Below are positions 45,428 through 63,486 of a stretch of 64,000 nt of DNA, one piece after another. Under the pieces are notes generated by a model. That model had not been told where the DNA came from. It saw only the letters and a list, made by a program, of their open reading frames with translations, and did not search any database. A program made the position numbers and the translations under genes. Location: the NCBI GenBank assembly GCA_002841355.1, contig PHFB01000001.1, positions 186,001 through 250,000 of the forward strand, read 5' to 3'. Position 1 is the first letter of the stretch. Each line of letters begins with the position of its first letter. Source of the stretch: Actinobacteria bacterium HGW-Actinobacteria-1. Its GTDB lineage: Bacteria > Actinomycetota > Coriobacteriia > Anaerosomatales > Anaerosomataceae.

Positions 45428-45449
45428 CGAGCACAGGGGAGGGAGCCAC

Positions 45450-46220: not shown

Positions 46221-46221
46221 C

Positions 46222-47454: not shown

Positions 47455-47462
47455 TGCCCGCT

Positions 47463-47482
47463 CGCGCCCACAGGTGGGCGCG
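47463..47482 (+). terminator. Hairpin after lysC
   Basis: Perfect 8-bp stem CGCGCCCA (47463-47470) / TGGGCGCG (47475-47482) with a 4-nt loop and no T-run. It probably ends or attenuates the dapB-lysC transcript before the exopolysaccharide locus. Confidence 0.5.
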
Positions 47483-47497
47483 GTGTCGTGGTCACGG

Positions 47498-47503
47498 TAT
47501 ACT
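47498..47503 (+). promoter_or_regulatory. Candidate -10 box for the polysaccharide locus
   Basis: TATACT lies 36 bp before the first gene of the locus, directly after the lysC hairpin. A good -35 hexamer was not found. Confidence 0.5.
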
Positions 47504-47538
47504 CCTCACGGAAGACACCGGTCGAGTCGGGGGATGAG

Positions 47539-48339
47539 ATGACCGTTCGAGACGCGCTCCGCATTCTCAAGGAGGAACGCATCCTGCTGTTCGCGATCGT
47601 CGCGCTGACAATCGTCGGCGCGGTGACGGCAGGACGCATCATGCCACAAGATGTGAGCGCTACAGCGCAGGTGCGCGTGTATCAGGACGACCGAGCCGCA
47701 ACCTTGCTCGCGCTTGGCGACACGCCTGCCCCGGTCGACCACGACGTCCTCATGGACACGCAGATCCGCCTGGCCACGAACCCTGCCGTTGCGCGCCGCG
47801 TGGTCGAGCGCCTCGGATTGGCCGACACCCCGGGTGACGTGCTGCAGCGGATATCGGTCTCAGCGCTGGGCCGCTCCACTATGCTGACGATCGAGGCACA
47901 GGCCCCCGACGCCGACTCCGCTGTTGCACTCGCCGACACCTGGATCGCCGAGTACCTTGCGTGGACGGCCGAGAACACCGCTGCTGACCTCGCAGCTGCA
48001 TCGAGCGCCCTAGCGCCTCGGATCACCGCCGCCCAGCAGAGGCTCGCCGAGACCGAAGCGCGCATCAAGACAGGCGGGCACACCAAGGAAGCCGACACCG
48101 CACTCGCTACCGCGGCCTCCGACTACGAGCAGCTGCTCGCGGGTTCGGACCGCCTGCAAACGCTCGCGAGTCTGGATTCCGCGCCCATCGCGGTGGTTTC
48201 AAGCGCCATCGCCGAGGACCGCTCGGAGGTCATCTCGATCGCCATGGATGTGCTCAAGGGGCTGGCAGTCGGTCTAGTGCTGGGCATCTTGCTAGCACTC
48301 CTGCGACATCGCACACCGCCCGCTGCGCAGCCAAGCTAG
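47539..48339 (+). CDS. Wzz/YveK-type polysaccharide chain-length determinant protein
   Basis: 266 residues from ATG 47539 with GGGGGATGAG upstream. Two membrane helices bracket the protein (ILLFAIVALTIVGAVTAG near the N terminus; VLKGLAVGLVLGILLALL at the C terminus), with a periplasm-side alpha-helical region between, including long heptad-like stretches (ITAAQQRLAETEARIKTGG). This is the architecture of Wzz/CapA co-polymerases. There is no tyrosine-kinase domain. It opens the polysaccharide locus. Confidence 0.8.
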   Translation: MTVRDALRILKEERILLFAIVALTIVGAVTAGRIMPQDVSATAQVRVYQDDRAATLLALGDTPAPVDHDVLMDTQIRLATNPAVARRVVERLGLADTPGDVLQRISVSALGRSTMLTIEAQAPDADSAVALADTWIAEYLAWTAENTAADLAAASSALAPRITAAQQRLAETEARIKTGGHTKEADTALATAASDYEQLLAGSDRLQTLASLDSAPIAVVSSAIAEDRSEVISIAMDVLKGLAVGLVLGILLALLRHRTPPAAQPS

Positions 48340-48355
48340 CCGGCATACCGACGCG

Positions 48356-49633
48356 ATGAGGAACGCCGCATCTGTGATCCGCAAGCTGCTCGTGCTGCTC
48401 GTCGGAGAGGGCGCGGCGCGACTCCTTGGTGTGGCGACCTTCGCCGTTCTCGCACGCGCGCTCGGCCTCGCCGACCTGGGTGTCTTCAGCTTCGGCATGA
48501 GCCTGGCGCTCGTGCTCGAATGCGTGATGGACTTCGGCCAGAACGCTCAACTCGGCAGGGATGTGGCCGAGGATCCCGAGCAGGGGCTCTTCCGATTCAC
48601 GCATGCTGCCGCGAACAAGACGCTCATCGCCGCACTGCTCGCTGCGGCGGCGGCGCTCGTGATGAGCATCGGGCGCTTCTCGGTCCACGAGACTACCACG
48701 GTGGTGCTGCTCATCGTATGGGCGGCCGGCCTGTCGGTTCTGGACAGCCTGCGTTCCACTGCACGCTCGCTCGAACGGTTCAAACTCGACAGCACGGTGA
48801 ATGGCGCCGAGTCACTCCTGCGCTTCCTGGCGATCGTGCTCGTGTGGTCGCTCGGCGGCGGGCTCGTCGCGTTCGGACTCGCGTTCGCGCTCGAGTCCTG
48901 GATCTCCGTCGCGATCGTGTGGGGGGTGCTAGGACGCCGGCACGACGCACTGCTGGCGCCACCCGCAAGCGTTGGCGATCTGCAGCGCTTCCTGTGGCGT
49001 TCGGCGCCGTTCGGGATCGCCGTCATGAGCCTCTCGGCGTTCTACAACCTCGATCAGGTCTTCGTGCGCACCATCGTCGGCGCGGCTGCCAACGGACTAT
49101 ACGGCGCCGCAGCACGGATTTCGTTCACGGCGTCCATCGTCGGCAGCCTTCTCGCGATGGTGGCCTATCCCGATCTGGCACGGATGCGGAGCGACCTTGG
49201 AGCATTGCAGAGATACCTCACCAAGGCGCTCTCGTTGGCGGGTGTGATCGGTGTGGTCGCCGCCGCGCTCGCGTTCGTGTGGGCCGCACCGCTGCTCACG
49301 CTGCTCTTCGGCGCCGAGTTCGCCGGTGCGGCCGGAATCCTACGAATACTCTCCCTGGTCATCGTGTTCCGGGGTGTCTCCACCGTGGCGCTCTACGCAG
49401 CCAATGCACTCGGCCAGAGCCGACAGGTCGCGACTGTCGCCATCGCGTTCACCATCGCCAACGTGACAGCGAACCTGGTGCTCCTGCCACGCTTCGGCGC
49501 ATACGCGGCCGCATGGATCAGCGGCATCGGTGAGGTGGCCCTTGCGGCAACACTCGTGACAGTGTCCCTCGTGTATATTCGTGGGTCTCGCTCGCTCATC
49601 GCCTCGGAGGTGACTGCGAATGCTCGTGACTGA
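48356..49633 (+). CDS. Polysaccharide flippase (Wzx/RfbX-like)
   Basis: 425 residues, about 12 hydrophobic segments. The N-terminal LLVLLVGEGAARLLGVATFA and LGLADLGVFSFGMSLAL, together with the later YNLDQVFVRTIVGAAANGLY, are typical for MOP-superfamily polysaccharide exporters. It would flip lipid-linked repeat units across the membrane. Its end overlaps the next gene by 14 nt. Confidence 0.87.
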   Translation: MRNAASVIRKLLVLLVGEGAARLLGVATFAVLARALGLADLGVFSFGMSLALVLECVMDFGQNAQLGRDVAEDPEQGLFRFTHAAANKTLIAALLAAAAALVMSIGRFSVHETTTVVLLIVWAAGLSVLDSLRSTARSLERFKLDSTVNGAESLLRFLAIVLVWSLGGGLVAFGLAFALESWISVAIVWGVLGRRHDALLAPPASVGDLQRFLWRSAPFGIAVMSLSAFYNLDQVFVRTIVGAAANGLYGAAARISFTASIVGSLLAMVAYPDLARMRSDLGALQRYLTKALSLAGVIGVVAAALAFVWAAPLLTLLFGAEFAGAAGILRILSLVIVFRGVSTVALYAANALGQSRQVATVAIAFTIANVTANLVLLPRFGAYAAAWISGIGEVALAATLVTVSLVYIRGSRSLIASEVTANARD

Positions 49634-50828
49634 TTCTCACGAATTCCTGGAACTCTACCGGGGCGACAAGGATTACCGGCTGGGGCAGGCGCTGGTCCAG
49701 CTGAGGCCGGATCTCTCGTTCGTCTCCTTCGCGCCTCGCTCGGTCAGCCCCGTCGAGCGCACGCTCCTCGGCAAGACGCGACTGGACGCCACCGATCTGC
49801 CGGAGTTGCCCGACCGGATGTCGCTCCGGCTTCTCCGATCGGTCGGCATACGCTTCGCCCGGAAGGAAGGCGGAGGCATTTTCTCCCTCATGCCAGGGTA
49901 CGGACGCGCATTGCGGCGCGCTGCGCCTGATGTGATGATCGAGAACCCGTACACGTGGTTGACGCCGCGCAGTTACACGACAGCCCGGGTTGCACGCACC
50001 CTTGGCGTACCTGTCGTCTACTACGATCCGGGTGACGACGTGCCCGTCACCACGATGCAGCGACTCTTGTTGCCGCTCGAGCGCCCGGTGGTGAACCGGG
50101 CCGCCGCAATCATCACCTATAACGCAGTCGGCCGGAATCGCTTCATCACCAAGTACGGCTACCCGGCGGATCGGATCTCAATCATCCCGAAACCTATCGA
50201 CGTGCCGCGCTGGCGACGCCCGGAGTTGCGCGACGAGGCTCGCGCGTCGCTCGGCATCTCCCCGGATACGTTCGTGGTAGCGTATTCCGGACGGCTCACG
50301 AGATTCAGAGGAAGCACCGCGCTCGCCGCTGCTGCTCGCATGGCCAATGCGGACGCGCGCTTCAACGACGTCATGTTCCTCTTCATCGGGGGCACGATGA
50401 GCTCGGATGTCGACGTCGCCGAGTACCGGGGCCCGAACACGATCGTGACGGGCATGATCCCCAACGACGAGATGCCCGCAATGCTGGCAGCAACAGACGC
50501 GATGGTCTTCCCGGATCTCACCACCAAGGCGGGATTCACGACTGCACTTGCCGAAGCGATGGCCGCCGCACTGCCGATCATCGTGGGCGCCAACGCCGAG
50601 CAGGGCTCGGTTCCGCTCGAAGACGGCGTTGATGCGCTCTTCTGCGAGTCCGGCTCGGCCGCCTCGATACTTGACGCCGTCTCCCGACTCAAAGCCGAAC
50701 CTGCGCTTGCACGCTCGCTCGGCGACGGCGCAGGACGCCTCGCCAGCGATACCATGGACTATCCGCGTGTTGCGAGTGCGTATCTCGACATACTGGAAAG
50801 GGTGGTGGCAGATGGCCGCCCGCACTAA
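49620..50828 (+). CDS. Glycosyltransferase family 4-like protein
   Basis: 402 residues from ATG 49620. A GT-B fold: ILRNRFIT-like VGRNRFITKYGYPADRISIIPKPIDV linker, then SPDTFVVAYSGRLTRFRGS and the C-terminal donor-binding region (FPDLTTKAGFTTALAEAMAAALP) with the E-x7-E type arrangement. The sugar specificity cannot be predicted. It overlaps its neighbours on both sides, indicating tight translational coupling. Confidence 0.84.
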   Translation: MLVTDSHEFLELYRGDKDYRLGQALVQLRPDLSFVSFAPRSVSPVERTLLGKTRLDATDLPELPDRMSLRLLRSVGIRFARKEGGGIFSLMPGYGRALRRAAPDVMIENPYTWLTPRSYTTARVARTLGVPVVYYDPGDDVPVTTMQRLLLPLERPVVNRAAAIITYNAVGRNRFITKYGYPADRISIIPKPIDVPRWRRPELRDEARASLGISPDTFVVAYSGRLTRFRGSTALAAAARMANADARFNDVMFLFIGGTMSSDVDVAEYRGPNTIVTGMIPNDEMPAMLAATDAMVFPDLTTKAGFTTALAEAMAAALPIIVGANAEQGSVPLEDGVDALFCESGSAASILDAVSRLKAEPALARSLGDGAGRLASDTMDYPRVASAYLDILERVVADGRPH

Positions 50829-51399
50829 GGACACCACGCCGAACTGGCGCCAGCGTGGCGGCTGGACGCCGGGATGGGAGTTCCGCCGCTGGGGCAAGGC
50901 GTTCATCAGCCGCGTACCGGGTGGTATCGGCAGCTTCCTGAGACGGTCCCTGTACGGGTTCGCTGCCTGTGGCAAAGACTGTCTCCTGCTTGAAGGCGTG
51001 TGGGTCGAATACCCCGAGCGCCTCTCGCTCGGAGAGCATGTGAACATAGCCCGAGACGTGATCATCAATGCGGCGGGTACGGTGCAGATCGACGATTGGG
51101 CGCTCCTCGGCCCGGGAGTCATCATCTACAGCCAGGATCACGTCTTCGACGGCATCGAGGTGCCGATATCGATGGCCGCCGACAAACGCGCGCCAATCCG
51201 TATCGGACGTGGGGCGTGGGTCGCCTCGAGGGCGATCATCACCGCCGGAGTGACGATCGGTGACGGCGCGGTCGTTGCGGCAGGAGCGGTCGTCACGCAC
51301 GATGTGGCACCCAACACGCTCGTTGCGGGCGTCCCTGCTCGCATCATCCGCGAGCGCGTTCCGGCCGAGAAGGGGAGCGCTGGCGACACTCGTGAGTAG
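50812..51399 (+). CDS. Left-handed beta-helix acyltransferase (LbH/MaT-like)
   Basis: 195 residues from ATG 50812. Hexapeptide repeats from about residue 70: LSLGEHVNIARDVIINAAGTV, DWALLGPGVIIYSQDHVFDG, APIRIGRGAWVASRAIITAG, TIGDGAVVAAGAVVTHDVAP, NTLVAGVPARII. The QDHVFDG segment contains the likely catalytic His, as in WcaF/NodL-type O-acetyltransferases. It probably acetylates a sugar of the polysaccharide. It overlaps both neighbouring genes. Confidence 0.85.
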   Translation: MAARTKDTTPNWRQRGGWTPGWEFRRWGKAFISRVPGGIGSFLRRSLYGFAACGKDCLLLEGVWVEYPERLSLGEHVNIARDVIINAAGTVQIDDWALLGPGVIIYSQDHVFDGIEVPISMAADKRAPIRIGRGAWVASRAIITAGVTIGDGAVVAAGAVVTHDVAPNTLVAGVPARIIRERVPAEKGSAGDTRE

Positions 51400-52837
51400 C
51401 GTCCGCGACATCCGGTTCTGGACGACGGCGATCATCGTCGCCGTCATCGTCGGCGCCCTCGCTTCGGCAGCGTTCGTGCCCGTGCTCGCGTTGCTCGTCC
51501 TAAGCGGAGTCGTCGCTCTGGTCGCGCTGCACCCGCGCAACGCGGTCATCGCGTTGGCGCTCGCTTCGCCCTTCTACGACCTTGCCGTCATCCAGGTGTC
51601 CGGCGTTGCCGATATCCGCATCCTTGAGGTGCTGTGGGCCGTCGCGGCCGTCAGCCTCATGTGGAGGATCTCCTCTGGCGCCGAGACCCGCTTCGTGGCG
51701 CCGCCCCGCTGGTTTACGCTGGGCATCGGTGCCCTCGCTGGCTGGTTCTTCGTCGCGGCCCTCGCATCCGGTGCCGGTCTCAGGCCGCTTATCGAGGCCG
51801 TGCAGACCGGGTATCTGGTCGTCATCGCATATCTGGTAGCGGGCGTTGTCTCAGGCACGACCTCCGGCGAGCTCCTCCGCTGGCTTCGGCCCTGGGCCGT
51901 CGTGATGTCGCTCGTGTTGCTGCTGTCGCTTGGTGGATACGTCCTCGGATTCGTCCCGGTTGCGCAGACCATCGTGAAGGTGCCGGAGATGTCCGTCGAG
52001 TACGCAGCAAACGCCGTCCTCGTCCAGGACTCCGGCGCCGCCCAGGTGCAGATTTCCCGCCTCAGCGTCCTCAACCTCGGACCCGTCGGTACCGCTGCCG
52101 CGCTCGTGAGCATCCTCATCGTCGCCTTGGCATTCGCCCTGTCGGATGCGGGGCACAAGAGCGCTCGACTCGCATGGCTCGTCATGGGCAGTGGCGGTCT
52201 CGTTCTGTTGCTCACCTACTCGCGCGCCGGGTGGGCTCTCGCCATCGTTGCCGCCGCACTGTTGATGCTCGCGGCGCGCAGCAGAAAGGCGACGATCACG
52301 CTTTCGCTCTTCGCCCTGGCGCTCGCCGTCTTCGGCAGCCTGCCAAGCGTCGCATCGCGGGTGGAGGACTTCGCGAATGTTGGCGAAGGCTCGTATCAGG
52401 CACACGCCCGAATGTGGGTCACAGCGGCGTACATGATCAGCGAGCACCCCATCTTTGGGTGGGGACCCGGCATGTATGCCGAAGAGGCGAATGCGATGGA
52501 TATCAATTCGTGGATGGCGACGGATATCTCGGCCGATCAGCCCCACAACTGGCTGCTTGAGATCTCAGCCGAGACGGGCGTAGTGGGCGGCATCATCGTG
52601 ATCGCGCTTGTCGGCACCATCCTCATCTACGGATGGCGCCGCCTGAAGAACGCGCAGCTGCCCGTTCTCGCGGTCTGGGTGGCGACCGGTGCGTATGTTG
52701 CGATGAACCTCACACTCAACGCGTTTCGCACCGAGATGATGTGGGTCTGGTTCGGTGCGGTCATCGGATTCTCGGCCTGGCAGTCGCAGGTCGACACGAC
52801 CGCGGCGCCAGAGGAGGAGGACTCATGCGCATCCTAG
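51392..52837 (+). CDS. O-antigen ligase/polymerase-like membrane protein
   Basis: 481 residues from GTG 51392; longer readings run back into the acyltransferase gene. About 12 membrane helices with a large outer loop near the C-terminal half carrying the Wzy_C-type signature: RVEDFANVGEGSYQAHARMWVTA with ISEHPIFGWGPGMYAEEA and a conserved HNWLLEISAETGVVG. Such proteins polymerise or ligate lipid-linked glycans. It could be the polymerase of this locus, since no other Wzy is present. It overlaps the next gene by 13 nt. Confidence 0.83.
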   Translation: MSSVRDIRFWTTAIIVAVIVGALASAAFVPVLALLVLSGVVALVALHPRNAVIALALASPFYDLAVIQVSGVADIRILEVLWAVAAVSLMWRISSGAETRFVAPPRWFTLGIGALAGWFFVAALASGAGLRPLIEAVQTGYLVVIAYLVAGVVSGTTSGELLRWLRPWAVVMSLVLLLSLGGYVLGFVPVAQTIVKVPEMSVEYAANAVLVQDSGAAQVQISRLSVLNLGPVGTAAALVSILIVALAFALSDAGHKSARLAWLVMGSGGLVLLLTYSRAGWALAIVAAALLMLAARSRKATITLSLFALALAVFGSLPSVASRVEDFANVGEGSYQAHARMWVTAAYMISEHPIFGWGPGMYAEEANAMDINSWMATDISADQPHNWLLEISAETGVVGGIIVIALVGTILIYGWRRLKNAQLPVLAVWVATGAYVAMNLTLNAFRTEMMWVWFGAVIGFSAWQSQVDTTAAPEEEDSCAS

Positions 52838-54048
52838 TCGCAAGCAAGTTCTTCTACCCGCGTGGAGGCCTCGAGCGCGTCATGTTCGACGAGATTGAGG
52901 CGCTTGAAGGCGCCGGCCATGAGGTGCTGCACTTCTCGGCACGTCACCCGCTCAACCTGCCATCGCCGTACGAGCGATACTTCGCACCGTATCTGGAGAT
53001 CGGGAGCGGATCCGGACTGGGCGCGGCCGACAAGATCCGGGCCATCGTGCGCATGTTCCGCAACCGTGCCGCCTCAAAGCGATTCGGCGACATGCTCGAC
53101 GACACCCACCCGGACATCGTGCACGTTCACGGCATCCACCGACAGCTCTCACCATCCATACTGCTCGAGGCAGCCAAGCGCTCTATCCCCGTCGTACACA
53201 CGCTGCACGACTATCACCTCATCTGTCCGGCAGACGTGATGCTCCGCGCGGGCGAAGTGCCGTGCCTGCCCCGCGCATGCCATCGTGTGAACTGCACCGC
53301 GGCTATTCGCAACCGCTGCACGCGAGGCAGCCTCGCCGCGTCGGCGATCGCTGCCGCCGAACTCTCGTTCCAGCGAATCACACAGGTCTACGACCGAACG
53401 GTCACGCGGTTCATCAGCCCGAGCCGCTTTCTTGCGGAGCTCATGGCCGAAGGCGGCTGGACCCGCACGCCCATCGACGTGATACCACCGGGCGCCACCG
53501 CGCGTCCGACCCGACCCGGCGGTCATGGAGGGTACGCGCTCTACGCCGGAAGGCTCAGTCCCGAGAAGGGAATCGAAGTCTTCCTCTCTGCCGCACGCGA
53601 GGCCCAGGTGCCAGCAGTCGTTGCCGGGGATGGCCCGCTCTCGGAGAGTCTGCGCACGATGTTCCCTGAGGCCCGGTTCACCGGTCACGTATCGGCCGCC
53701 GAGGTCGACAGGCTACTCGGCGAGGCGCTTGTTGCTGTGGTACCCTCGGTGTCTCTTGAGAACGCCCCGCTGGGCGTGCTCGAGGCGATGGCGGCAGGTG
53801 TTCCTGTGATCGCATCGAGGGTCGGGGGAGTACCTGAGCTTGTTGAGGACGGCACCACCGGATTCCTGGTGGCGCCGGGCGATACGAGCGGGCTCGCCGC
53901 GGCGCTCGCACGAGTCGCATCGGAGGCGGGACTTCGCGAGACGCTTGGGGGCGCAGGTCGCGCCAGAGTGACCGAACGGTTCACGGCCGAGCGGCATCTG
54001 GCGGGATTGCTGGACACATACGCACAAGCAACGGGGGAGCGTTCATGA
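52825..54048 (+). CDS. Glycosyltransferase family 4
   Basis: 407 residues from ATG 52825 with GAGGAGGAGG upstream. GT4 features: FYPRGGLERVMFDEIEALEGAGHE in the acceptor domain, VHTLHDYHLICPADVML with a Cys-rich loop, RFISPSRFLAEL, LYAGRLSPEKGIEVFL and the donor-binding APLGVLEAMAAGVPVIASRVGG-type motif. It adds a sugar to the growing unit; the donor is unknown. It overlaps the radical SAM gene by 4 nt. Confidence 0.88.
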   Translation: MRILVASKFFYPRGGLERVMFDEIEALEGAGHEVLHFSARHPLNLPSPYERYFAPYLEIGSGSGLGAADKIRAIVRMFRNRAASKRFGDMLDDTHPDIVHVHGIHRQLSPSILLEAAKRSIPVVHTLHDYHLICPADVMLRAGEVPCLPRACHRVNCTAAIRNRCTRGSLAASAIAAAELSFQRITQVYDRTVTRFISPSRFLAELMAEGGWTRTPIDVIPPGATARPTRPGGHGGYALYAGRLSPEKGIEVFLSAAREAQVPAVVAGDGPLSESLRTMFPEARFTGHVSAAEVDRLLGEALVAVVPSVSLENAPLGVLEAMAAGVPVIASRVGGVPELVEDGTTGFLVAPGDTSGLAAALARVASEAGLRETLGGAGRARVTERFTAERHLAGLLDTYAQATGERS

Positions 54049-55046
54049 ACGGCTGTGTGATCACGACTTTCAGGTGCAACGCCAAGTGTCACATGTGCAA
54101 CATCTGGCAGCACCAGAGCGATGCCGCCGAGGAACTGCCGGCGCGCTACTACGAGAAGCTTCCTGACGGCCTGGGACGGCTCAACGTCACCGGCGGCGAG
54201 CCGATGCTGCGCGACGACATCATGGATATCATCGGCATCGTCTCCAAGAAGGCGAAGATCATCGAGGTGTCGACGAACGGGTTCTACACGGACCGCATCC
54301 TTGAGATCGCGCACGCGTATCCGAAGACGATGTTCCGCGTCAGCCTTGAGGGACTACCCGAGCTCAATGACCGCCTCAGGGGGACGAAGGACGGCTTCGA
54401 CCACGCGCTTCGGACGATGCTGGGCCTCATCGACTCACCCGCGCGCGACATCGGATTCTCAGTGGTCATCTGCGACAAGAACGCAGATGACCTGCTCGTT
54501 TTGTACAAGCTCTGTGTCGCGCTCGGTGTCGAGTTCGGCAACTCGGTCATGCATAACTCGTGGTACTTCCACAAGGAAGACAACGCCGTGAAGGACCTTG
54601 AGAAGGCGACCGCCGCCGAGAAGGAGTTCATCAAGGCGCTGCTCACGTCGCAGCGTCATGGCCTCAAGATGAAGCTGAAAGATTATCTCCGAGCATATTT
54701 CAATCTCAATATTCTCAACCATTTGGACGATAGACCTAATGTGATGTCCGCGTGTTGTGCAGGTCGAGACCTGTTCTTCGTGGATCCTTGGGGCAACGTC
54801 ACACCATGCAACGGCACTCGCGAACCCTGGACCATGGGGAACCTCAAGGATCAGACGTTCGACGAGATCTGGACCAGCCCACAAGCGGATGAGGTCAGGA
54901 CGCAGGTCGATGCATGCCAGCGCTCGTGCGCATTCATCGGCACTGCACGGTTTGACATGCTGAAGCACCCGGTCAGGCCCTTGAGTTGGATCGCACGTAA
55001 CAAGCTGCTACTCGCAAAGGGGGCCGAGATATCCTACACGCCGTGA
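54045..55046 (+). CDS. Radical SAM/SPASM-domain enzyme of the surface-polysaccharide locus
   Basis: 333 residues. The cluster motif CNAKCHMC (CxxxCxxC) is near residue 10, followed by VTGGEPMLRDD and VSTNGFYTD typical of radical SAM barrels. The C-terminal region has further Cys (SACCAGRDLF, VTPCNGTREPW, VDACQRSCAF) for an auxiliary iron-sulphur cluster (SPASM/twitch). The substrate is unknown; in glycan loci such enzymes modify sugars or peptides. A stretch at about 54690-54745 has distinctly more A/T at third codon positions than the rest. Confidence 0.88.
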   Translation: MNGCVITTFRCNAKCHMCNIWQHQSDAAEELPARYYEKLPDGLGRLNVTGGEPMLRDDIMDIIGIVSKKAKIIEVSTNGFYTDRILEIAHAYPKTMFRVSLEGLPELNDRLRGTKDGFDHALRTMLGLIDSPARDIGFSVVICDKNADDLLVLYKLCVALGVEFGNSVMHNSWYFHKEDNAVKDLEKATAAEKEFIKALLTSQRHGLKMKLKDYLRAYFNLNILNHLDDRPNVMSACCAGRDLFFVDPWGNVTPCNGTREPWTMGNLKDQTFDEIWTSPQADEVRTQVDACQRSCAFIGTARFDMLKHPVRPLSWIARNKLLLAKGAEISYTP

Positions 55047-55082
55047 CCGGACGCAACCGCATGTGAAAGAGGTCTTGCTGCA

Positions 55083-56195
55083 ATGGCACCACGCGTCGCG
55101 GTCATCGGTACGAGGGGGATCCCGGACGTTCACGGCGGGGTTGAGTACCACTGTGAGGAACTCTACCCGCGCCTTGCCGAATTGGGCTTCGACGTCACCA
55201 TCTTCGCTCGAGAGCCGTACATCACATCCGCAATGGAGTATCGCGGTGTTCATGTCGTGCCGCTTCCCGCAGTGCGCCGCAAATCACTCGAAGCGATCAG
55301 CCATTCTGCCCGAGCTGCATGCACGGCCGGCCGCGAGAAGTTCGACATCTGCCACTTCCACTCGGTAGGTCCGGCAGCCACGATTCCCATCGCCAGGCTC
55401 TTCGGCGCCCGCAACATCGTGTTCACGATGCATGGCCCCGACTACGAGCAGCGCAAGTGGGGAAAGAACGCCCGTCGATTCCTCAAGTTCGGTGAGGCCG
55501 TTGGGGCCAAGCACGCAGACGCGATCGTCTCGGTATCTGGACACCTCCAGCGCCGACTCGAGGAGGAGTACGGCCGCCCGGTGCACTACATCCCCAACGC
55601 ACCTCGAGCCATCAAAGCGACGCCGCCAAACGGCACGCTATCCTCGTTCGGCCTTCACGGCAAGGACTACGTTTTGTACGTCGGTCGTCTCGTGCCGGAC
55701 AAGCGCGTGGAGGATCTGATCGAAGCGATGGCCGACGTTCGTCCAGCGGTTCCGGTCGTGGTCGCCGGGCACAGCAGCCATGCATGGGAGTACGGCGCGC
55801 ACCTTCGCGAGGCGGGCGCCGATCGCGCCATCTTCACTGGCTGGCTCGAATGGCGCCAGACACAGGAGTTGTTCACGAATGCGCTCGCACTCGTTCTCCC
55901 ATCGGCGGTCGAAGGCCTGCCGCTAAGCCTGCTTGAGGGTATGGCGCATGGCGTCCCTTGCATCGCATCCGATATCGCAGGCAACCTTGAGGTCCTCGGA
56001 TCGCCTCCCGCAGGTCTGGTGTATCCGGTGGGGGATGCGAACGCCCTGCGTGGCGCGTTGCAGACGGTGCTCAACGACCAGGAAGTCGCCACCCAGCTCA
56101 AGGCGGCGGGACCACGACGCATCTCCGAGGCATACGACTGGGACTCGATCGCGCAGCAGATGGCCGACGTCTACAACGAGCTGCTCGCGCGCTAG
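55083..56195 (+). CDS. Glycosyltransferase family 4 (WsaF/rhamnosyl-type N terminus)
   Basis: 370 residues from ATG 55083. N-terminal RVAVIGTRGIPDVHGGVEYH resembles the conserved start of a GT4 subgroup (IGTRGIPA.YGGFE), with CHFHSVGPAATIPIARLFG and VFTMHGPDYEQRKWG following. The donor domain shows YVLYVGRLVPDKRVEDLIEA and PSAVEGLPLSLLEGMAHG. The end overlaps by 4 nt, tail to tail, with the minus-strand gene. Confidence 0.87.
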   Translation: MAPRVAVIGTRGIPDVHGGVEYHCEELYPRLAELGFDVTIFAREPYITSAMEYRGVHVVPLPAVRRKSLEAISHSARAACTAGREKFDICHFHSVGPAATIPIARLFGARNIVFTMHGPDYEQRKWGKNARRFLKFGEAVGAKHADAIVSVSGHLQRRLEEEYGRPVHYIPNAPRAIKATPPNGTLSSFGLHGKDYVLYVGRLVPDKRVEDLIEAMADVRPAVPVVVAGHSSHAWEYGAHLREAGADRAIFTGWLEWRQTQELFTNALALVLPSAVEGLPLSLLEGMAHGVPCIASDIAGNLEVLGSPPAGLVYPVGDANALRGALQTVLNDQEVATQLKAAGPRRISEAYDWDSIAQQMADVYNELLAR

Positions 56196-56908
56196 CGCAC
56201 TTTCACCTGGATGCGGAACAGCCCGGAGTTGTCAGCGTACATCCCCGGTGCCTCGTTGATGAGCGCGATGACGTGCTCACCGGGCGTACCGACAACGACG
56301 CGCATGCCATCTCGAGCCTCGAGTTCGCTGTACGCGACGTAGTGGGACGAGTCACCAACCCGGAACAGCAACGCACCTACGTTCGCAGTCGGTCGTACCG
56401 GCACGAACGTGTAGTCGTGTCCGGGGTCGCCCTCCGGACCGCATGTCCCGCTCTTCCAGTACCTGATCGAACCGCTGGCCTTCACGAGCAGGATGCCAGA
56501 AGAGCCGATCACACCGACGTCGACGCCTGACTCGGCGCTCGCTGTCAGGTCCACGGTGAGGTTGCCAGCAGTTCCGTACTCAACGATCTCGTCGACAGGC
56601 TCAAGCTCCACGCGCTCGGTCGGGCGCCCATCGGCGGCTATCTCGATCCGCGACTCGACGCGTCCCAGAATCGAGCGCTCCTCGAAGTAGGTGTAGAGGA
56701 CCTTGCGTCCCTCGGCTCCGACCTGTGTGGTGGCCTCGGACCCGATCGGCAGCTTCGCCGAGGCGACGCGCTGCGTCTCGAAGGGGATGGAGACAACCTG
56801 CGACTCGGTCACGAGCTGCGTACGCACCGGGCGGATGAGTGCAACGGCAGCGACGAGCACCAGTATGAGGAGCGCGACCATCACGACGCCTCGGATTCGT
56901 GCTCCCAT
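56192..56908 (-). CDS. Membrane-anchored G5-domain protein with a LecA-like sugar-binding C terminus
   Basis: 238 residues; the start is the ATG whose complement is at 56906-56908, with GGGAGGTT upstream. An N-terminal anchor (VVMVALLILVLVAAVALI) is followed by a G5 domain (about 30-120: VSIPFETQRVASAKLPIGS ... PVDEIVEYGT). The C-terminal 110 residues resemble the PA-IL/LecA galactose-binding fold: LVKASGSIRYWKSGTCGPEG, ANVGALLFRVGD and ALINEAPGMYADNSGLFRIQ. It is the only clear minus-strand gene in the window and lies divergent from the deacetylase. It probably sits on the surface and binds glycans. Confidence 0.78.
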   Translation of the reverse strand: MGARIRGVVMVALLILVLVAAVALIRPVRTQLVTESQVVSIPFETQRVASAKLPIGSEATTQVGAEGRKVLYTYFEERSILGRVESRIEIAADGRPTERVELEPVDEIVEYGTAGNLTVDLTASAESGVDVGVIGSSGILLVKASGSIRYWKSGTCGPEGDPGHDYTFVPVRPTANVGALLFRVGDSSHYVAYSELEARDGMRVVVGTPGEHVIALINEAPGMYADNSGLFRIQVKVR

Positions 56909-57022
56909 ACAACCTCCCCCCGGACGCAGCCTGTAGCGCGAACCACATGATACTGTCTATCGTGGACGCAGAGCCAGCGAGGGCTCGCGATACCACGTGT
57001 CTCGGCAAGAAGGAGCGTGCGC

Positions 57023-57913
57023 TTGAGCACCGGGCCTGTTGACCTCAAGAGTCGTCTTCGCCGCTGCGCCTTTGCCCTCCTCCGGGCGAGCGGAGTGCCA
57101 CTCGTTCTACGGCACACCGTACAGCGTCGACGTCTCACGATCCTGCTCTTCCACCAGCAGGATCCCGTTCGCTTCGAGTCTACGCTGCACGCGCTCAGGT
57201 CCCGCTACTCGCTCGTCGGCATGGCCGAGGCACTCCAGGCGCTCGAGTCCGGCACGATCCACCTGCTTCCGCCGTGCCCGCTCGTGATCACCTTCGATGA
57301 CGGTCGCGCATCGAACGCCGCGCTTGTCCCCGTACTCCGGCGGTATGAAGTCCGGCCCACCGTCTTCGTGACCACCGGCGTCGTAGGAACGAATCGGCAC
57401 TTCTGGTGGACGGCGCTCGATGCAAGCGAGCTCAGACACGCGCAGTCGTTGCCCGAGGCCGAGCGGATCGCCTATCTTCGCCAGCTTGGACATGATCCGC
57501 TCACTGAGCGCTCCACAGCTCAAGCGTTGACGCTGGAGCAGCTCTCGGAGCTTTCCTCAGTGGCAGACATCGAGCCCCATACGCGCACGCATCCTGTCCT
57601 CACCCGGTGCACGGCCGAAGAAGCGCGCGCCGAGATCCAAGGATCCATCGACGACGTCACCACGCTCGTCGGAACCACTCCGCGCGTCTTCGCATACCCG
57701 AATGGCGACGTGAACGACACGGTGAGCGGTATCGTCGCGGCGTGCGGAATCCGCTATGCCGTAACGACCGAACCGGTATACGTCGACAGGCGCTCGGAGC
57801 CCCTGCGACTGGGTCGGATATTCATTCGCGACACCGCGACGAACAGCGAGCTCATCGTCTTCGCAAGCGGGCTTCACGGCATGCTCAAGCGGATGCTGCG
57901 CCGAGCGCCGTAG
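57023..57913 (+). CDS. Polysaccharide deacetylase family protein (NodB-like)
   Basis: 296 residues from TTG 57023 (AAGGAG 7 nt upstream; GTG 57017 is closer and less well spaced). NodB motifs: CPLVITFDDGRASNAALVPVL (motif 1 with TFDDG) and DIEPHTRTHPVLTRC (motif 2, HTxxH), plus PRVFAYPNGDVN (motif 3). Metal ligands Asp and the two His are in place. It likely removes acetyl groups from the surface polysaccharide or from peptidoglycan. The N-terminal 35 residues carry no clear signal peptide. Confidence 0.86.
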   Translation: MSTGPVDLKSRLRRCAFALLRASGVPLVLRHTVQRRRLTILLFHQQDPVRFESTLHALRSRYSLVGMAEALQALESGTIHLLPPCPLVITFDDGRASNAALVPVLRRYEVRPTVFVTTGVVGTNRHFWWTALDASELRHAQSLPEAERIAYLRQLGHDPLTERSTAQALTLEQLSELSSVADIEPHTRTHPVLTRCTAEEARAEIQGSIDDVTTLVGTTPRVFAYPNGDVNDTVSGIVAACGIRYAVTTEPVYVDRRSEPLRLGRIFIRDTATNSELIVFASGLHGMLKRMLRRAP

Positions 57914-58020
57914 CGCATACGCTCCGACAACCGACCGTTCGTCGGAAGAGTGTGTGATTTGACGCAGTTTCTGCTCACAAAACCACCCTGATGTGCCGAC
58001 AATCACAGTGTCAGAGAGTT

Positions 58021-58026
58021 GATAAT
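58021..58026 (+). promoter_or_regulatory. Candidate -10 box upstream of the c-di-GMP riboswitch
   Basis: GATAAT lies between the arms of a 7-bp inverted repeat (57993-57999, 58033-58039) and about 25 bp before the aptamer. The -35 region is not convincing. The repeat might be an operator. Confidence 0.35.
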
Positions 58027-58049
58027 CGCAGATCGGCACGAATCTCCTG

Positions 58050-58138
58050 AAAAAGGCACAACCCGTCGAAAGGCGGGTGTCGCAAAGTCACGGGTCTACC
58101 GGAAGGAACGCCTTCCCATGACAGCCGGACTGCCGGGG
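58050..58138 (+). promoter_or_regulatory. Cyclic-di-GMP-I (GEMM-I) riboswitch
   Basis: The sequence follows the GEMM-I consensus: GGCACA opening P1, stem ACCCGTC-GAAA-GGCGGGT with the GNRA tetraloop at 58068-58071, CGCAAAGTCACGGGTCTACC with the invariant CGCAAAG linker, a second stem GGAAGG/CCTTCC, and ATGACAGCCGGACTGCC, the tetraloop-receptor and P1-closing strand. It precedes the beta-helix/CWB2 gene by about 80 nt and should make that gene respond to c-di-GMP. The direction of control (on or off) is not known. Confidence 0.9.
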
Positions 58139-58154
58139 CCCCGAGATGGATTTT

Positions 58155-58190
58155 GACCCGAGGCTTCCTGGCGACAGGGAGTCCCGGGTC
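58155..58190 (+). promoter_or_regulatory. Long hairpin between aptamer and start codon (expression platform)
   Basis: A 15-bp stem (58155-58169 / 58176-58190) with two G-T wobbles, one mismatch and a 6-nt loop follows the aptamer. There is no T-run, so it may act on translation or as a factor-dependent terminator; an alternative structure with the aptamer strand is possible. Confidence 0.55.
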
Positions 58191-58215
58191 GATGTGCATC
58201 AAGGGGCAGGTACAC

Positions 58216-60711
58216 GTGGGTATTCGCACGACAGGACTCAAGGTCTATGCGAGCAAGGTAGTCATCCTGATGACGGCTCTGGCCGTCATCTCCTCGTTCG
58301 TCAGCGTCCCTGTCGCCTCCGCCGCCGCAACGTCAGTCTCAGTCACGGATTTCGGCGCCAACGGAACCGACACTGGCGACGACACCACCGCCTTCCAGAG
58401 TGCCGTCGACGCAGTTGCGTCCGGCGGTACCGTAACCATTCCGGCCGGCACCTACGTGCTCGGCCAGGTCCGCATCAACAAGCCGCTTGAGATCGCCGGC
58501 GTGGGCGCCACCTCGCTTCTCAAGCTGCGCTCAGGCGCAAACCAGACGCTCCTGGCCATCAGCAACACCACAGGCGTCACGGTTCGCGATCTGGCTATCG
58601 ACGGCAACATCAGCGGTCAGACCGGCGGTTACCCGCACGGTATCCAGTTCTCAGCCACGACCGATTCCATCGTGACCCGCGTGGACATCCGCAACTGCGA
58701 AAAGTCGGCCGTCTCGGTGTACGAAGGTTCCGACCGGGTCAGCGTCACCAACAGCCGTTTCGACAACAACGAGAACGACGTCGAGATCCATTCGAGCGCC
58801 TACAACTACTGCGCCGACAACTACGCTACCAACACGCAGTACGAGTCCTGGGTCAGCTACGAGCAGGCCGGTGGCCCCGGCAAGGCCCACCACAACACCA
58901 TCGTCAACAACGTCTCGATCGGCGCGTACGCCGGCATCAACATCGAGCGCTCGCACGACGATCTCGTGCAGGGCAACACGATCCAGAATGCCAAGTGGGG
59001 CATCATGGTGCAGGGTCGCGACTCCACGTACAGCTACAACGAGACCGTCATCGACAACACCCTCATCGGTGGCGCCAACTCCACGCAGTGGGGCATCACC
59101 GCCGAGAACCCGTCACACACCAACACGATCGCCCGCAACTCGGTATCCGGCTGGCTCGCGACGCCGCTCAACATCCAGTCGACCGATTCGGTCTTCGAGG
59201 GCAACACCATCAGCAACAACCGGACGGCAGTCGCGGTCAAGACGAGCGACGTCATAATCCGCAACAACGTCTTCACCGGCTCCGGTCAGGTCGGCGTCAT
59301 CTTCGGTGACGCACTGAGCGACGTCGTCTTCGAGGGCAACACGGTCAGCGGATCCGCCGAGGAGGGCGTCCTCGTCCTCGAGCCGCTGACTCGCTTCGGC
59401 TTCATCCGCAACACGGTCACGGGCAACGGAACCTCCGCAAGCGGCACGCTCGATGGTGTCTACTCGGTCGCAACATGGATCGACTCGGCACTGCTCGGCA
59501 ACACGATCATCAACCCGGCTGGCGTCGCGGCGCAGAAGCACCCCGTGACCATCCCGACCGGCAGCACAGTCGCAGTCGCGAACAACCAGATGAGCGCCAT
59601 CAGCGCAGCACTCCTTCCCACGGGCACGTCCGGCAAGACCATCACGGTCTCGCAGTTCGTGGCCGAGTCGGGCGTTTGGGAATGCACCGCAAGCGGCATC
59701 CCCGGTACCTGGACGCTTCAGGAATCGATCCCGACCGTCGAGCCCACCCCGGAACCTGCTCCCGAACCACGCCCGATCTCGCAGACCTCGGTGCAGGGCA
59801 ATGACCGCTACACCACCAACGTCGCGGTCTCGCAGGCTGCGTATCCTAATGGCGCGGACGTTGTCATCGTGGCGACCGGCGAGAACTGGCCGGACGCGCT
59901 CGGCGGCGCCACCCTCGCGAACGCCGTTGGCGGTCCGATCCTGCTGACCAAGCGCAACCAGCTTCCCGCAGTCGTACTCGCCGAGATCCGCCGGCTTGGC
60001 GCCACGCAGGCGATCATCCTCGGCGGCACGAGCGCGGTCAGCACCAGCGTAGAGTCGGTGCTGGTGAACGAACTCGAACTGGTGCGCCGTATCGGCGGGA
60101 TCAACCGGTACGCGACGGCGGCTGCAATCGCCGAGGCGTGCGTTGAAGCTCTCGGTGGAACCTACGACGGCACGGTCCTGTGTGCGACCGGCTCGAGCTT
60201 CGCTGATGCGCTGGCCGCGTCGCCGCTCGCGGCTGCCAAGGGCTGGCCGCTCGTGCTCGTGGGCCCCGACGGCGTTGCAGGCATCAGCGCAACGCTCGAT
60301 GCCATCGGTGCAGATAATGCCGTCATCCTCGGCGGCACCAGCGCCGTTCCGGCGAAGGTTGAGACCGGGCTCGCCGCGCGATTCGGCACCGGCAACGTCG
60401 AGCGGATCGCCGGCAGCGACCGCTACGCGACCTCGGCCGCAATCGCCCAGTGGGCGGTCACCAACGCTGGACTCGGCTGGAACAACCTCGCAGTGGCAAC
60501 CGGCGAGAACTTCCCGGACGCACTCGCAGGTGGCGTTCTGCAGGCGGTCGACAACTCCGTGCTACTGCTGACCATGAGCAAGGGGCTCAGCAAGGACGCA
60601 CGCGCATGCATCGCCGATAACCGCGCCGAGATCAACACGGTCAAGTATCTCGGCGGACAGAGCGCCCTCTCGGCCGGCGTGCGCACGGCAGTGGCCGGAG
60701 CCCTTCGCTAG
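58216..60711 (+). CDS. Secreted right-handed beta-helix protein with CWB2 cell-wall anchor
   Basis: 831 residues from GTG 58216 (AAGGGG 9 nt upstream; ATG 58192 is the alternative). Signal peptide (YASKVVILMTALAVISSFVS ... ASA), then a pectate-lyase-like parallel beta-helix of about 480 residues (VTDFGANGTDTGDDTTAFQS, many GNTI, NNV and NNRT turns), a Pro/Glu linker (VEPTPEPAPEPRP) and three CWB2 repeats (GNDRYTTNVAV, GINRYATAAAI, GSDRYATSAAI). It probably binds or cleaves a polysaccharide at the surface. It lies directly behind the c-di-GMP-I riboswitch and after the glycan locus. Confidence 0.88.
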   Translation: MGIRTTGLKVYASKVVILMTALAVISSFVSVPVASAAATSVSVTDFGANGTDTGDDTTAFQSAVDAVASGGTVTIPAGTYVLGQVRINKPLEIAGVGATSLLKLRSGANQTLLAISNTTGVTVRDLAIDGNISGQTGGYPHGIQFSATTDSIVTRVDIRNCEKSAVSVYEGSDRVSVTNSRFDNNENDVEIHSSAYNYCADNYATNTQYESWVSYEQAGGPGKAHHNTIVNNVSIGAYAGINIERSHDDLVQGNTIQNAKWGIMVQGRDSTYSYNETVIDNTLIGGANSTQWGITAENPSHTNTIARNSVSGWLATPLNIQSTDSVFEGNTISNNRTAVAVKTSDVIIRNNVFTGSGQVGVIFGDALSDVVFEGNTVSGSAEEGVLVLEPLTRFGFIRNTVTGNGTSASGTLDGVYSVATWIDSALLGNTIINPAGVAAQKHPVTIPTGSTVAVANNQMSAISAALLPTGTSGKTITVSQFVAESGVWECTASGIPGTWTLQESIPTVEPTPEPAPEPRPISQTSVQGNDRYTTNVAVSQAAYPNGADVVIVATGENWPDALGGATLANAVGGPILLTKRNQLPAVVLAEIRRLGATQAIILGGTSAVSTSVESVLVNELELVRRIGGINRYATAAAIAEACVEALGGTYDGTVLCATGSSFADALAASPLAAAKGWPLVLVGPDGVAGISATLDAIGADNAVILGGTSAVPAKVETGLAARFGTGNVERIAGSDRYATSAAIAQWAVTNAGLGWNNLAVATGENFPDALAGGVLQAVDNSVLLLTMSKGLSKDARACIADNRAEINTVKYLGGQSALSAGVRTAVAGALR

Positions 60712-60848
60712 AGCACCTCGCTCGCCGCGGCTCATCATCGGCAAGGCAACGTCAGCGCCCCGCGTGTCGCACGGTTGTGGCACAATACCCCAGTAGGAAT
60801 ACGCATGTGTCGGGACCAGAGCGTCCCGTTCAGTAGGGGAGTCACGCC

Positions 60849-61742
60849 ATGACCGAGCCTCGATTCGGACGCCTTCTCACCGCGATGGTCACACCGTTCA
60901 CGCCCGACGGAGCACTCGACCTCGATCGCGCACAGGAACTTGCGCTTCGCCTTCTCGACCAGGGGAGCGAGGCGCTCGTCGTCTGCGGCACCACTGGCGA
61001 GTCGCCAACGGTGTTCTACGACGACAAGCTGCGGCTCTTTGAAGCCGTGATCGAAGCCGTTGATGGTCAGGCACCGATCATCGCCAATGCAGGCGACAAC
61101 TGTACCGATGACTCGGTCGAGTTCGCCAAGCAGGTCGTGAAGCTGGGTGTCGACGCCGTCATGGCCGTCGTGCCGTACTACAACAAGCCCCCGCAAGAGG
61201 GGATGTACCGTCATTTCGGCGCCATCGCCTCGGCAGTCGAGGTTCCGGTGGTCTTGTACAACATCCCGGGCCGCTGCGTAGTGAACCTCGACACGGCTAC
61301 CACGCTGAGGCTTGCAGCGGACTTCGAGAACATCGTGGCCGTCAAGGAAGCAAGCTCGAACCTGACGCAGATCGCCTCGATCATCGATGGCGCTCCGGTC
61401 GGATTCGAAGTGCTCTCTGGCAACGACGAGGACACGCTGCCGATGATGGGACTTGGCGCTACCGGCGTCATCTCGGTGGCGTCGCACGTCGTCGGCCCCC
61501 AGATGGCCGAGATGCTCAACGCACAGGCGTCGGGAGACCACACCCGCGCGCTCAAGATCCATCTTGAACTCATGCCGCTGTTCAAGGCGCTCTTCATGAC
61601 CGCGAATCCCATCATGGTCAAGAAGGCGCTTGAGCTTGTCGGCTTCCCGGTGGGCGAGACCCGACTCCCGCTGATTCCCGCATCCGAGGATCAGACCGCC
61701 GAACTTGCGCGGGTCATGCACCACCTCGGCCTCATCGACTGA
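60849..61742 (+). CDS. dapA: 4-hydroxy-tetrahydrodipicolinate synthase
   Basis: 297 residues from ATG 60849 with AGTAGGGGAGTC upstream. LTAMVTPFTPDGALDLDRA, VVCGTTGESPTVFYDDK (GTTGE), VVPYYNKPPQEGMYRHF with the catalytic Tyr, VLYNIPGRCVVNLD and VAVKEASSNLTQI with the Schiff-base Lys. First committed step of the lysine/diaminopimelate branch. The usual Actinobacterial neighbour RNase J follows. Confidence 0.96.
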   Translation: MTEPRFGRLLTAMVTPFTPDGALDLDRAQELALRLLDQGSEALVVCGTTGESPTVFYDDKLRLFEAVIEAVDGQAPIIANAGDNCTDDSVEFAKQVVKLGVDAVMAVVPYYNKPPQEGMYRHFGAIASAVEVPVVLYNIPGRCVVNLDTATTLRLAADFENIVAVKEASSNLTQIASIIDGAPVGFEVLSGNDEDTLPMMGLGATGVISVASHVVGPQMAEMLNAQASGDHTRALKIHLELMPLFKALFMTANPIMVKKALELVGFPVGETRLPLIPASEDQTAELARVMHHLGLID

Positions 61743-61812
61743 TACCCCGCACAGGCGGGTCGAACTCGCACTAACCCTCAGACGCACGAAAAGGAGCACG
61801 ATCGAACAGCAT

Positions 61813-63486
61813 ATGACCACACAGAAGAACCGACTCCGGGTCATCCCGCTTGGCGGGCTCGACGAGATCGGTAAGAACATGACCGTCGTCGAGTACGGAA
61901 ACGACATGGTCGTTATCGACGCCGGCATCATGTTCCCCGACGACGACACACCGGGTGTCGACCTCATCCTCCCGGACTACAGCTACATCGTGAAGCGCAA
62001 GGACAAACTGCGCGGCATCATCATCACGCACGGCCACGAGGACCACACCGGTGCCTTGCCGTACCTTCTGCGCGACCTCGGAACGGCCGTGCCGATTCTC
62101 GGCACAAAGCTCACGCTTGGCCTCATCAAGGGCAAGCTCGAGGAGCATCGGATCAAGAAGCCGAAGCTGCGCGAGATCAAGCCAGGCGGTCACGTGAGCC
62201 TGGGCGTCTTCGGGTTCGATTTCATCGCGATGAACCACTCGATACCGGACGGCGTCGCGGTCTTCGTGCGCACACCTGTCGGGAACCTGCTCCACACCGG
62301 TGACTTCAAGCTCGATCAAACACCGATCGACGGCGTCCCCACGGACTATGCGGGCCTTGCCAAAGCAGCCCGTGCAGGCATCACGCTGCTCATGAGCGAC
62401 TCCACGAACGCCGAGTCCCTCGGACACACGCCCTCCGAGGCGGTCGTCGGCGTCACGCTGCGCCGCATCTTCGACGGCGCGGACCAGCGGATCATCGTCG
62501 CTTCCTTCGCATCGCACATCCACCGTCTGCAACAGGTCTGCGACGCCGCGGTTGCCGCAGGTCGCAAAGTAGCAGTTACCGGGCGTTCGATGGTGAACAA
62601 CACGACGATCGCGCGCGAACTCGGCTACCTGCACATCGCCGACGAGGATATCGTCGACGCCTACGCCATGCAGGGTCTAGCCGCCGACAAGGTCGTCGTG
62701 CTCTCGACGGGAAGCCAGGGCGAGCCGCTCTCGGCGCTCGCGCGCATGGCCAACCGCGACCACAAGACCGTCGAGATCGAGGCCGGCGACACCGTGGTGC
62801 TCTCGGCCACACCGGTCCCAGGCAACGAGAAGGCGGTCAGCCGCGTCATCAACCGGCTGTTCAAAGCCGGTGCGAACGTCATCCACAAGGGTTCGGCACA
62901 GGTTCACGTGTCCGGGCACGCGGCCGCCGAGGAACTCAAGCTGATGCTGAACCTCACGAAGCCGACGTACTTCATGCCGATCCACGGCGAGACGCGGCAC
63001 CTTCACGCGCACGCCAAGCTTGCCGAGGCTGTCGGTATCCCGGAGAACAACATCTTCATCCTGGAGAACGGACAGTCGCTGGAGCTGAACGAGACGCATG
63101 CGAAGCGCGGGGACCATGTCGAGTCCGGCGTCGTGTACGTGGACGGAATCAACGTCGGTGATATCGGTGAGGTGGTCCTTCGAGACCGCCAGCTGCTCTC
63201 AAGTGATGGCATCGCGATGGTCGTTGTCGCCGTTGACGCACAGACCGGCAAGGTCGCAGGCGACGCTGAGCTCGTGCTTCGCGGGCTCGTTCTGTCGGGC
63301 GGCGAGGACGAGGCCGTTATCGCCGAGGCGCGCCAGCGCGTCGCAAAGGTACTGCAACGCACGTCGAAGGAGGGTGTCACCGACCACGGTGTCATCAAGA
63401 AGGCGCTCCGCGACTCTCTCGGTCAGTTCATCTGGGAGCGCAGCCGTCGTCGTCCGATGATCATTCCTATCGTCATGGAGGTCTAG
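61813..63486 (+). CDS. rnj: Ribonuclease J
   Basis: 557 residues from ATG 61813. Metallo-beta-lactamase/beta-CASP fold: RVIPLGGLDEIGKNMTVVEY, the zinc motif TITHGHEDH-like IIITHGHEDHTGALPYLL, MNHSIPDGVAV, LHTGDFKLDQTPI, LLMSDSTNAESLG, STGSQGEP and the beta-CASP HVSGHA and PIHGETRHLHAHA motifs. It has 5' exo- and endonuclease activity on RNA. The longer in-frame reading from 61705 overlaps dapA and lacks homology. It precedes uppP by 4 nt. Confidence 0.95.
   Translation: MTTQKNRLRVIPLGGLDEIGKNMTVVEYGNDMVVIDAGIMFPDDDTPGVDLILPDYSYIVKRKDKLRGIIITHGHEDHTGALPYLLRDLGTAVPILGTKLTLGLIKGKLEEHRIKKPKLREIKPGGHVSLGVFGFDFIAMNHSIPDGVAVFVRTPVGNLLHTGDFKLDQTPIDGVPTDYAGLAKAARAGITLLMSDSTNAESLGHTPSEAVVGVTLRRIFDGADQRIIVASFASHIHRLQQVCDAAVAAGRKVAVTGRSMVNNTTIARELGYLHIADEDIVDAYAMQGLAADKVVVLSTGSQGEPLSALARMANRDHKTVEIEAGDTVVLSATPVPGNEKAVSRVINRLFKAGANVIHKGSAQVHVSGHAAAEELKLMLNLTKPTYFMPIHGETRHLHAHAKLAEAVGIPENNIFILENGQSLELNETHAKRGDHVESGVVYVDGINVGDIGEVVLRDRQLLSSDGIAMVVVAVDAQTGKVAGDAELVLRGLVLSGGEDEAVIAEARQRVAKVLQRTSKEGVTDHGVIKKALRDSLGQFIWERSRRRPMIIPIVMEV

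Follow-up and report, generated by a model that had tools for sequence, protein, structure and literature searches.

The question raised by this locus is whether an RNA element in front of a surface protein gene ties synthesis of that protein to c-di-GMP and, if so, at which step. The element lies in the window, by which we mean the whole 64-kb stretch of DNA analyzed, and its host belongs to the Anaerosomatales (Coriobacteriia). Our main reading, to which we give a probability of roughly 0.6, is that a c-di-GMP-I riboswitch of this order would control translation of a beta-helix/CWB2 protein; ligand binding and direction of control are predicted, and use of the sigma factor WhiG and a role in lifestyle are putative. 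A cmscan search of the whole window gave one Rfam match above cut-off, c-di-GMP-I (RF01051) at 58045-58137 on the + strand, with 67.5 bits against a gathering score of 35 (E 4.7e-11) and an alignment covering the full model (1-87), in agreement with the complete aptamer of the preliminary description. RF01051 was again the top match when a 301-base stretch was scanned (E 2.2e-13). The GAAA tetraloop and the CGCAAAG linker that had been pointed out are both present, in the cmscan alignment as in the sequence, at 58068-58071 and 58081-58087. The ligand-contact bases are kept in the window aptamer: by our own mapping of the numbering, G 58055 is presumably the equivalent of G20, A 58084 of A47, and C 58133 of C92. 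Position 20 separates c-di-GMP from cGAMP recognition, and with G at 58055 the 3',3'-cGAMP variant (GEMM-Ib), which requires A, was rejected for the window. The c-di-GMP-I-GGC family (RF03167), which is the best-scoring family for some relatives in the order, was rejected as well, RF01051 being retained as the best match of the clan. By sequence, the window RNA is confirmed as a c-di-GMP-I riboswitch with c-di-GMP as its predicted ligand. The ligand-selecting base is G in 61 of the 63 copies of the order. Both exceptions come from one genome, G049, where A replaces G in L065, before a subtilase, and in L074, before a protein that is GH26-like by eye; judged by this base, they are possibly cGAMP sensors. 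A cGAMP-bound G20A mutant of the c-di-GMP-I class is described in PMC6274999. The closing P1 helix that had been proposed fared less well. Two pairings can be drawn from the 5' strand at 58042-58047 (+), CUCC 58044-58047 with GGGG 58135-58138 and AUCUC 58042-58046 with GAGAU 58143-58147, and the relatives' leaders show no covariation behind either; GAGAU is absent from L049, the sole relative leader of the window type, and the Rfam RF01051 model itself has no P1.

The regulated gene occupies 58216-60711 (+), in the frame of the open reading frame 58153-60711, and encodes 831 amino acids. GTG 58216, with the Shine-Dalgarno sequence AAGGGG at 58201-58206 (+) 9 nt upstream, was taken as the start, since the N-terminus that it gives looks hydrophobic and signal-like by eye. 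The product matches CWB2 (PF04122, three stretches, E 2.5e-49), NosD, Beta_helix, and a pectate-lyase-like family in Pfam. By its domains it is, as had been supposed, a predicted surface protein, with a right-handed beta-helix and three CWB2 cell-wall-binding stretches, and its export is predicted from the N-terminus by eye. Genes for a flippase, glycosyltransferases, an O-antigen-ligase-like protein, a radical SAM protein, and a polysaccharide deacetylase lie upstream, together with one for a Wzz-like protein that scores under its Pfam cut-off, so the placement of the site just after an exopolysaccharide locus holds. Beside the polysaccharide genes, 56192-56908 (-) encodes a protein that looks secreted and combines a G5 domain with a PA-IL-like lectin domain. 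Within 45408-63486, the polysaccharide and riboswitch genes are flanked by apparent dapB-lysC and dapA-RNase J genes (by eye). A homologue of the window gene was found in just 2 of the 69 genomes of the order, and the riboswitch is present in both.

Between the aptamer and the gene stands the 15-bp, GC-rich hairpin already noted in the preliminary description (58155-58190, +), in which GACCCG 58155-58160 pairs with CGGGTC 58185-58190 and nine further pairs follow; it also appears in the computed fold. No T-run comes after it, and no terminator-like site was found at this hairpin on the + strand. In the ligand-free fold of the window leader (-106.7 kcal/mol), the Shine-Dalgarno GGGG has an unpaired probability of 0.00: an anti-Shine-Dalgarno segment, GCCCC 58138-58142 (+), pairs with GGGGC 58203-58207, and GAUG 58145-58148 pairs with CAUC 58197-58200. 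In this modeled fold the hairpin is part of the structure predicted to hide the Shine-Dalgarno sequence. GCCCC is conserved in L049 (genome G026), the sole relative that shares the shorter platform of the window. A competing helix, H4, can be drawn between the 5' flank (58019-58037, +) and 58188-58202 (+; GUCGAUGUGCAUCAA), a strand that overlaps both the hairpin base and the CAUC of the sequestering helix. When H4 was forced, the fold reached -86.9 kcal/mol, and when AUCUC was forced onto GAGAU it reached -89.6 kcal/mol; each partly opened the Shine-Dalgarno sequence. At equilibrium these open folds are disfavored by 17-21 kcal/mol, which is more than ligand binding likely pays, and therefore the predicted switch would have to be kinetic, decided during transcription. 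The canonical helices of the relatives, H1 and H2 (defined below), are not used in the window. Because L049 is the one usable relative, the window platform rests on folding and not on covariation. A role of the hairpin in hiding the Shine-Dalgarno sequence, the order-wide set of riboswitches, and the tie to transcription through WhiG, encoded in the window, and RsiG, encoded elsewhere in the genome, had all been overlooked earlier.

The c-di-GMP-I riboswitch is present in 56 of the 69 genomes of Anaerosomatales/OPB41, at 63 places, and in none of 14 control genomes. The host carries a second copy (G000:C25:50340-50431, 69.6 bits) before the gene of a protein with an HExxH motif. When the downstream frame was picked automatically, 43 of the 63 copies stood before the gene of a small, secreted-looking protein with HExxH near its end; the pick went to the wrong frame for two further leaders, L072 and L075, and contigs equal in length to theirs occur among the HExxH loci (L156 and L152). 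The other downstream products include glycosyl hydrolase-like proteins (GHL15, GH26, and GH5-like), subtilases, and an HD-GGDEF protein 380 bases off. A search of the named genome collection with the HExxH protein gave 40 loci (L137-L176), labeled mostly Coriobacteriia, Anaerosomatales, or just Actinobacteria, with one Slackia and one Aeromicrobium; a riboswitch of the c-di-GMP-I family was found at 35 of the 40, and 2 of the 5 loci lacking one start near a contig or locus end. In one leader region (L035, genome G043), a distance of about 1 kb separates two HExxH genes that have one riboswitch each. A small secreted HExxH protein (PPEP-1) and a surface adhesin of Clostridioides difficile are reportedly each under a c-di-GMP riboswitch, and the host likewise has an HExxH protein and a surface protein in one genome, each with such a riboswitch. 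Unlike in the PPEP-1 case, the HExxH protein examined here (L003:8527-9054) gave no substantial match in Pfam or NCBIfam, and its likeness to zincins is weak: in a structural model, where residues 82-177 are predicted better than the remainder, it resembles minigluzincin/selecase and IrrE zincins with a best E value of 0.11.

The expression platform is best seen in these relatives. By one rule, AAGGGG, AGGGG, or GGGG precedes the start in 43 of the 63 leaders, and 20 have no site of the AAGGGG type. We compared the pairing of each leader's own segments with that of segments swapped between leaders (20,000 permutations) in 38 leaders, leaving out L072, L077, and L078, whose starts were misplaced, and two of the window type. 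H1, formed by the strand behind the aptamer and the strand before the Shine-Dalgarno sequence, gave z = -9.6, and H2, formed by the strand before the aptamer and the Shine-Dalgarno sequence with its spacer, gave z = -7.1 (0 of 20,000 for both); these permutation statistics retain some shared ancestry among leaders. With 10 nonredundant leaders the values were -4.7 and -4.2, again with 0 of 20,000 each. Without its invariant CCCC/GGGG core, H2 was weaker (z = -1.4 with 10 leaders and -4.2 with 38). H4, in which the 5' flank pairs with the hairpin's far foot, gave z = -2.9 (45 of 20,000; 38 leaders) and -2.5 (200 of 20,000; 10 leaders), and unrelated control pairs of segments gave 0.2 to 1.3. 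An extended local P1 (H3) was rejected as the main ON helix, since all fifteen choices of segments gave z = +1.6 to +2.5. RNAalifold, run on 34 of the 38 leaders, paired the CCCC before the aptamer with the Shine-Dalgarno GGGG in all 34, closing the aptamer. H1 and H2 nest together with the full hairpin. Since H4 crosses H2, the open and closed states exclude each other, barring a pseudoknot. In most of 40 leaders folded without ligand, the GGGG is closed (median unpaired probability, 0.015), and its unpaired probability is below 0.1 in 80% of 20 natural leaders versus 35% of 200 with shuffled flanks. The covarying helices of the relatives hide the Shine-Dalgarno sequence. The window shares with other members of the c-di-GMP-I (GEMM-I, RF01051) class the whole aptamer, the contact bases, and the place before a surface protein gene; what differs from that class is that in the relatives the 5' flank reaches over the aptamer and a hairpin arm to cover the Shine-Dalgarno sequence and that most copies follow WhiG-type promoters. 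Six leaders (L046, L050, L056, L057, L065, and L074), before GH26-like and other genes, have no long arm and carry the Shine-Dalgarno sequence directly behind the aptamer; they represent a different platform, possibly of opposite sign.

The sigma-WhiG (flagellar-type) promoter is characterized by TAAA, 15 nt, and GCCGATAA before the transcript start; we scanned with the consensus TNAAG, 13-17 nt, GCCGATA and a cut-off of at least 9 of 11 positions. Such a promoter was found in 55 of 63 leaders of the order, compared with 273 of 12,600 shuffles. The window has a weak candidate at 57975-58002 (+), TCACA, 15 nt, and GCCGACAA (scored as TCACA-N15-GCCGACA), which at 8 of 11 is under the cut-off and has identical letters in L049; no sigma-70-like promoter was found in 57850-58260. 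The riboswitch also occurs in 155 of 396 genomes of a phylum sample (four belong to the order). Outside the order, a promoter lies within 170 bases at 45 of 60 places hand-chosen from the rows listed, one per genome, for family spread and not at random, versus 592 of 12,000 shuffles and 0 of 59 downstream stretches; 23 of the 25 families in this set have at least one promoter-bearing place. A smaller phylum set had the promoter in 12 of 14 loci, 6 of 20 having been dropped when a text pattern missed the aptamer. TPP riboswitches, considered as a promoter control, gave 8 weak matches, all below cut-off, and were left unused. CRP-like sites scoring 8 of 10 or better precede the promoter in 43 of 58 leaders versus 438 of 11,600 shuffles, mostly 35-37 or 57-60 bases upstream of the -10 box; paired CRP-like sites about 22 bp apart precede the WhiG-type promoter in several leaders (e.g., L054, L061, and L069). 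The E. coli aer promoter is reported to use sigma-28 with CRP at -49.5 (PMC2859248). Many relatives are alike in having a CRP-like site some 36 bp upstream of the -10 box, which we estimate to be near -50; unlike at aer, their CRP sites and transcript starts are predicted, and the window has no good site (7 of 10, under the cut-off used).

The proteins for such a circuit are encoded in the host genome. The sigma factor gene whiG lies in the window itself at 4786-5577 (+; NF004935, 374.7 bits with a cut-off of 343; PDB 6pfj, E 1e-93), and FliA/WhiG scored above cut-off in 66 of the 69 genomes of the order. Another FliA/WhiG-like sigma factor is encoded at G000:C17:14840-15496 (134.8 bits, below cut-off), and similar matches occur in many genomes of the order. 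An RsiG of 106 amino acids with a single c-di-GMP motif is encoded elsewhere (L247:1333-1650, minus strand; genome contig C1 near 295765) and matches PF22802 (68.5 bits; cut-off, 27) and RsiG of PDB 7lq4 (E 6.2e-10). Its motif, E(X)3S(X)2R(X)3[Q/H](X)3D, occurs once and in the H variant; H in place of Q is described as permissible (PMC8325347). The idea that RsiG was absent was dropped, since a strict Q motif had given chance sites only and the H variant located the protein. In the parts of PMC8325347 consulted, a single-motif RsiG is named just for Rubrobacteria and Thermoleophilia, and a word search of its main text found no mention of Coriobacteria; the protein seen here is a single-motif RsiG in a Coriobacteriia genome. 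That paper proposes that RsiG-c-di-GMP-WhiG controls type IV pili in Rubrobacter through this promoter type. Like the Rubrobacter and Streptomyces switch, the host has WhiG, a single-motif RsiG, and flagellar-type promoters in front of genes for pilin-like and GGDEF proteins: such a promoter stands before two pilin-like genes, one of them of the type IV kind, and before a gene whose product by eye resembles PAS-GGDEF. The host differs from that switch in that a c-di-GMP riboswitch comes after the promoter. The host genome has 11 GGDEF places, no flagellin was found in it, and cultured Anaerosomatales are described as piliated and nonmotile (PMC9686372). WhiG is the likely reader of this promoter class and would, putatively, also serve the promoter in the window. 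Bdellovibrio resembles the host in having a riboswitch and a FliA/WhiG-type sigma factor in one bacterium, with merRNA, a c-di-GMP riboswitch RNA, alongside a global FliA program; in contrast to the host, its merRNA has no conserved downstream gene and is unmarked for a FliA promoter in the table of that study (PMC3627812).

Most likely, the leader acts by covering and freeing the Shine-Dalgarno sequence. Without ligand, the 15-bp hairpin would bring the GCCCC behind the aptamer and the GGGG into contact, so that the first covers the second; in the competing fold, H4 would form between the 5' flank and the hairpin's far side and free the GGGG; and c-di-GMP would shift the balance between the closed and H4 folds. 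An early reading in which c-di-GMP must close the switch was abandoned once H4 was found, and we now lean slightly toward ON, on the grounds that ligand-free leaders are closed and that H4 offers an open state. The argument from closure is a weak one: a closed fold is also computed for those leaders whose Shine-Dalgarno sequence comes straight after the aptamer. An OFF switch, to which we give somewhat less than even odds, would have c-di-GMP stabilize the aptamer-closing helix, which in the relatives contains the Shine-Dalgarno sequence, and so stop translation at high c-di-GMP. H2, the closing helix under the aptamer, covaries and has the Shine-Dalgarno sequence within it, as such a switch would have it, and with RsiG present and WhiG held at high c-di-GMP the two controls would form a coherent double lock. 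RsiG, together with the seven functional class I switches of C. difficile, all described as OFF (PMC6366702), would favor this direction, but the ligand-free folds of the 40 leaders are already closed and leave little to close, a point that is itself blunted by the closed look of the armless leaders. The same review cautions against extrapolating the sign of a riboswitch (PMC6366702).

Two further readings were weighed. The hairpin could be a terminator and H4 an antiterminator, with the Shine-Dalgarno pairing secondary; some relatives (e.g., L036 and L043) do have TTTTT after the hairpin, and H4 pairs with that stretch, but the lack of a T-run and of a terminator-like site on the + strand of the window makes attenuation unlikely here. 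Still less probable is that the window copy is degenerate and has lost its responsiveness. The weakness of its promoter and CRP-like site, the narrow distribution of its gene, and the count of only 11 functional c-di-GMP riboswitches given for C. difficile (PMC6366702) would fit such a loss; against it stand an aptamer score close to that of the host's other copy, the preserved contact bases, and the joint retention of aptamer and gene in G026. Translational control by a responsive riboswitch is the reading that we prefer. The sessile-lifestyle switch suggested in the preliminary description requires ON with c-di-GMP, a sign that sequence does not settle, and such a role for the window element is therefore a possible one.

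The riboswitch class itself is known; what is new is that its relatives here have a covarying platform, that a WhiG-type promoter is frequent, and that RsiG is present. Judging from titles and the openings of abstracts, we found no published statement linking WhiG to c-di-GMP riboswitches. The leader lies downstream of a putative sigma-WhiG-type promoter in most relatives, and more weakly so in the window, and RsiG would hold WhiG at high c-di-GMP. We tentatively propose, as an idea that may well prove wrong, that c-di-GMP has two points of action on the same transcripts in Anaerosomatales and perhaps across much of the phylum, in that it withholds sigma-WhiG through RsiG and gates translation through a c-di-GMP-I riboswitch in the leader that WhiG has made. 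RsiG and the class I riboswitch, both known c-di-GMP devices, meet here in one genome, and since the promoter stands before most of the riboswitches examined, a direct test is possible of how a single messenger is sensed at two steps in the expression of one gene. If the double control is real and the riboswitch is OFF, the cell would have a sharp double lock; if the riboswitch is ON, the two controls would oppose each other, and surface and secreted proteins would be made only at middle levels of c-di-GMP, as through a band-pass filter.
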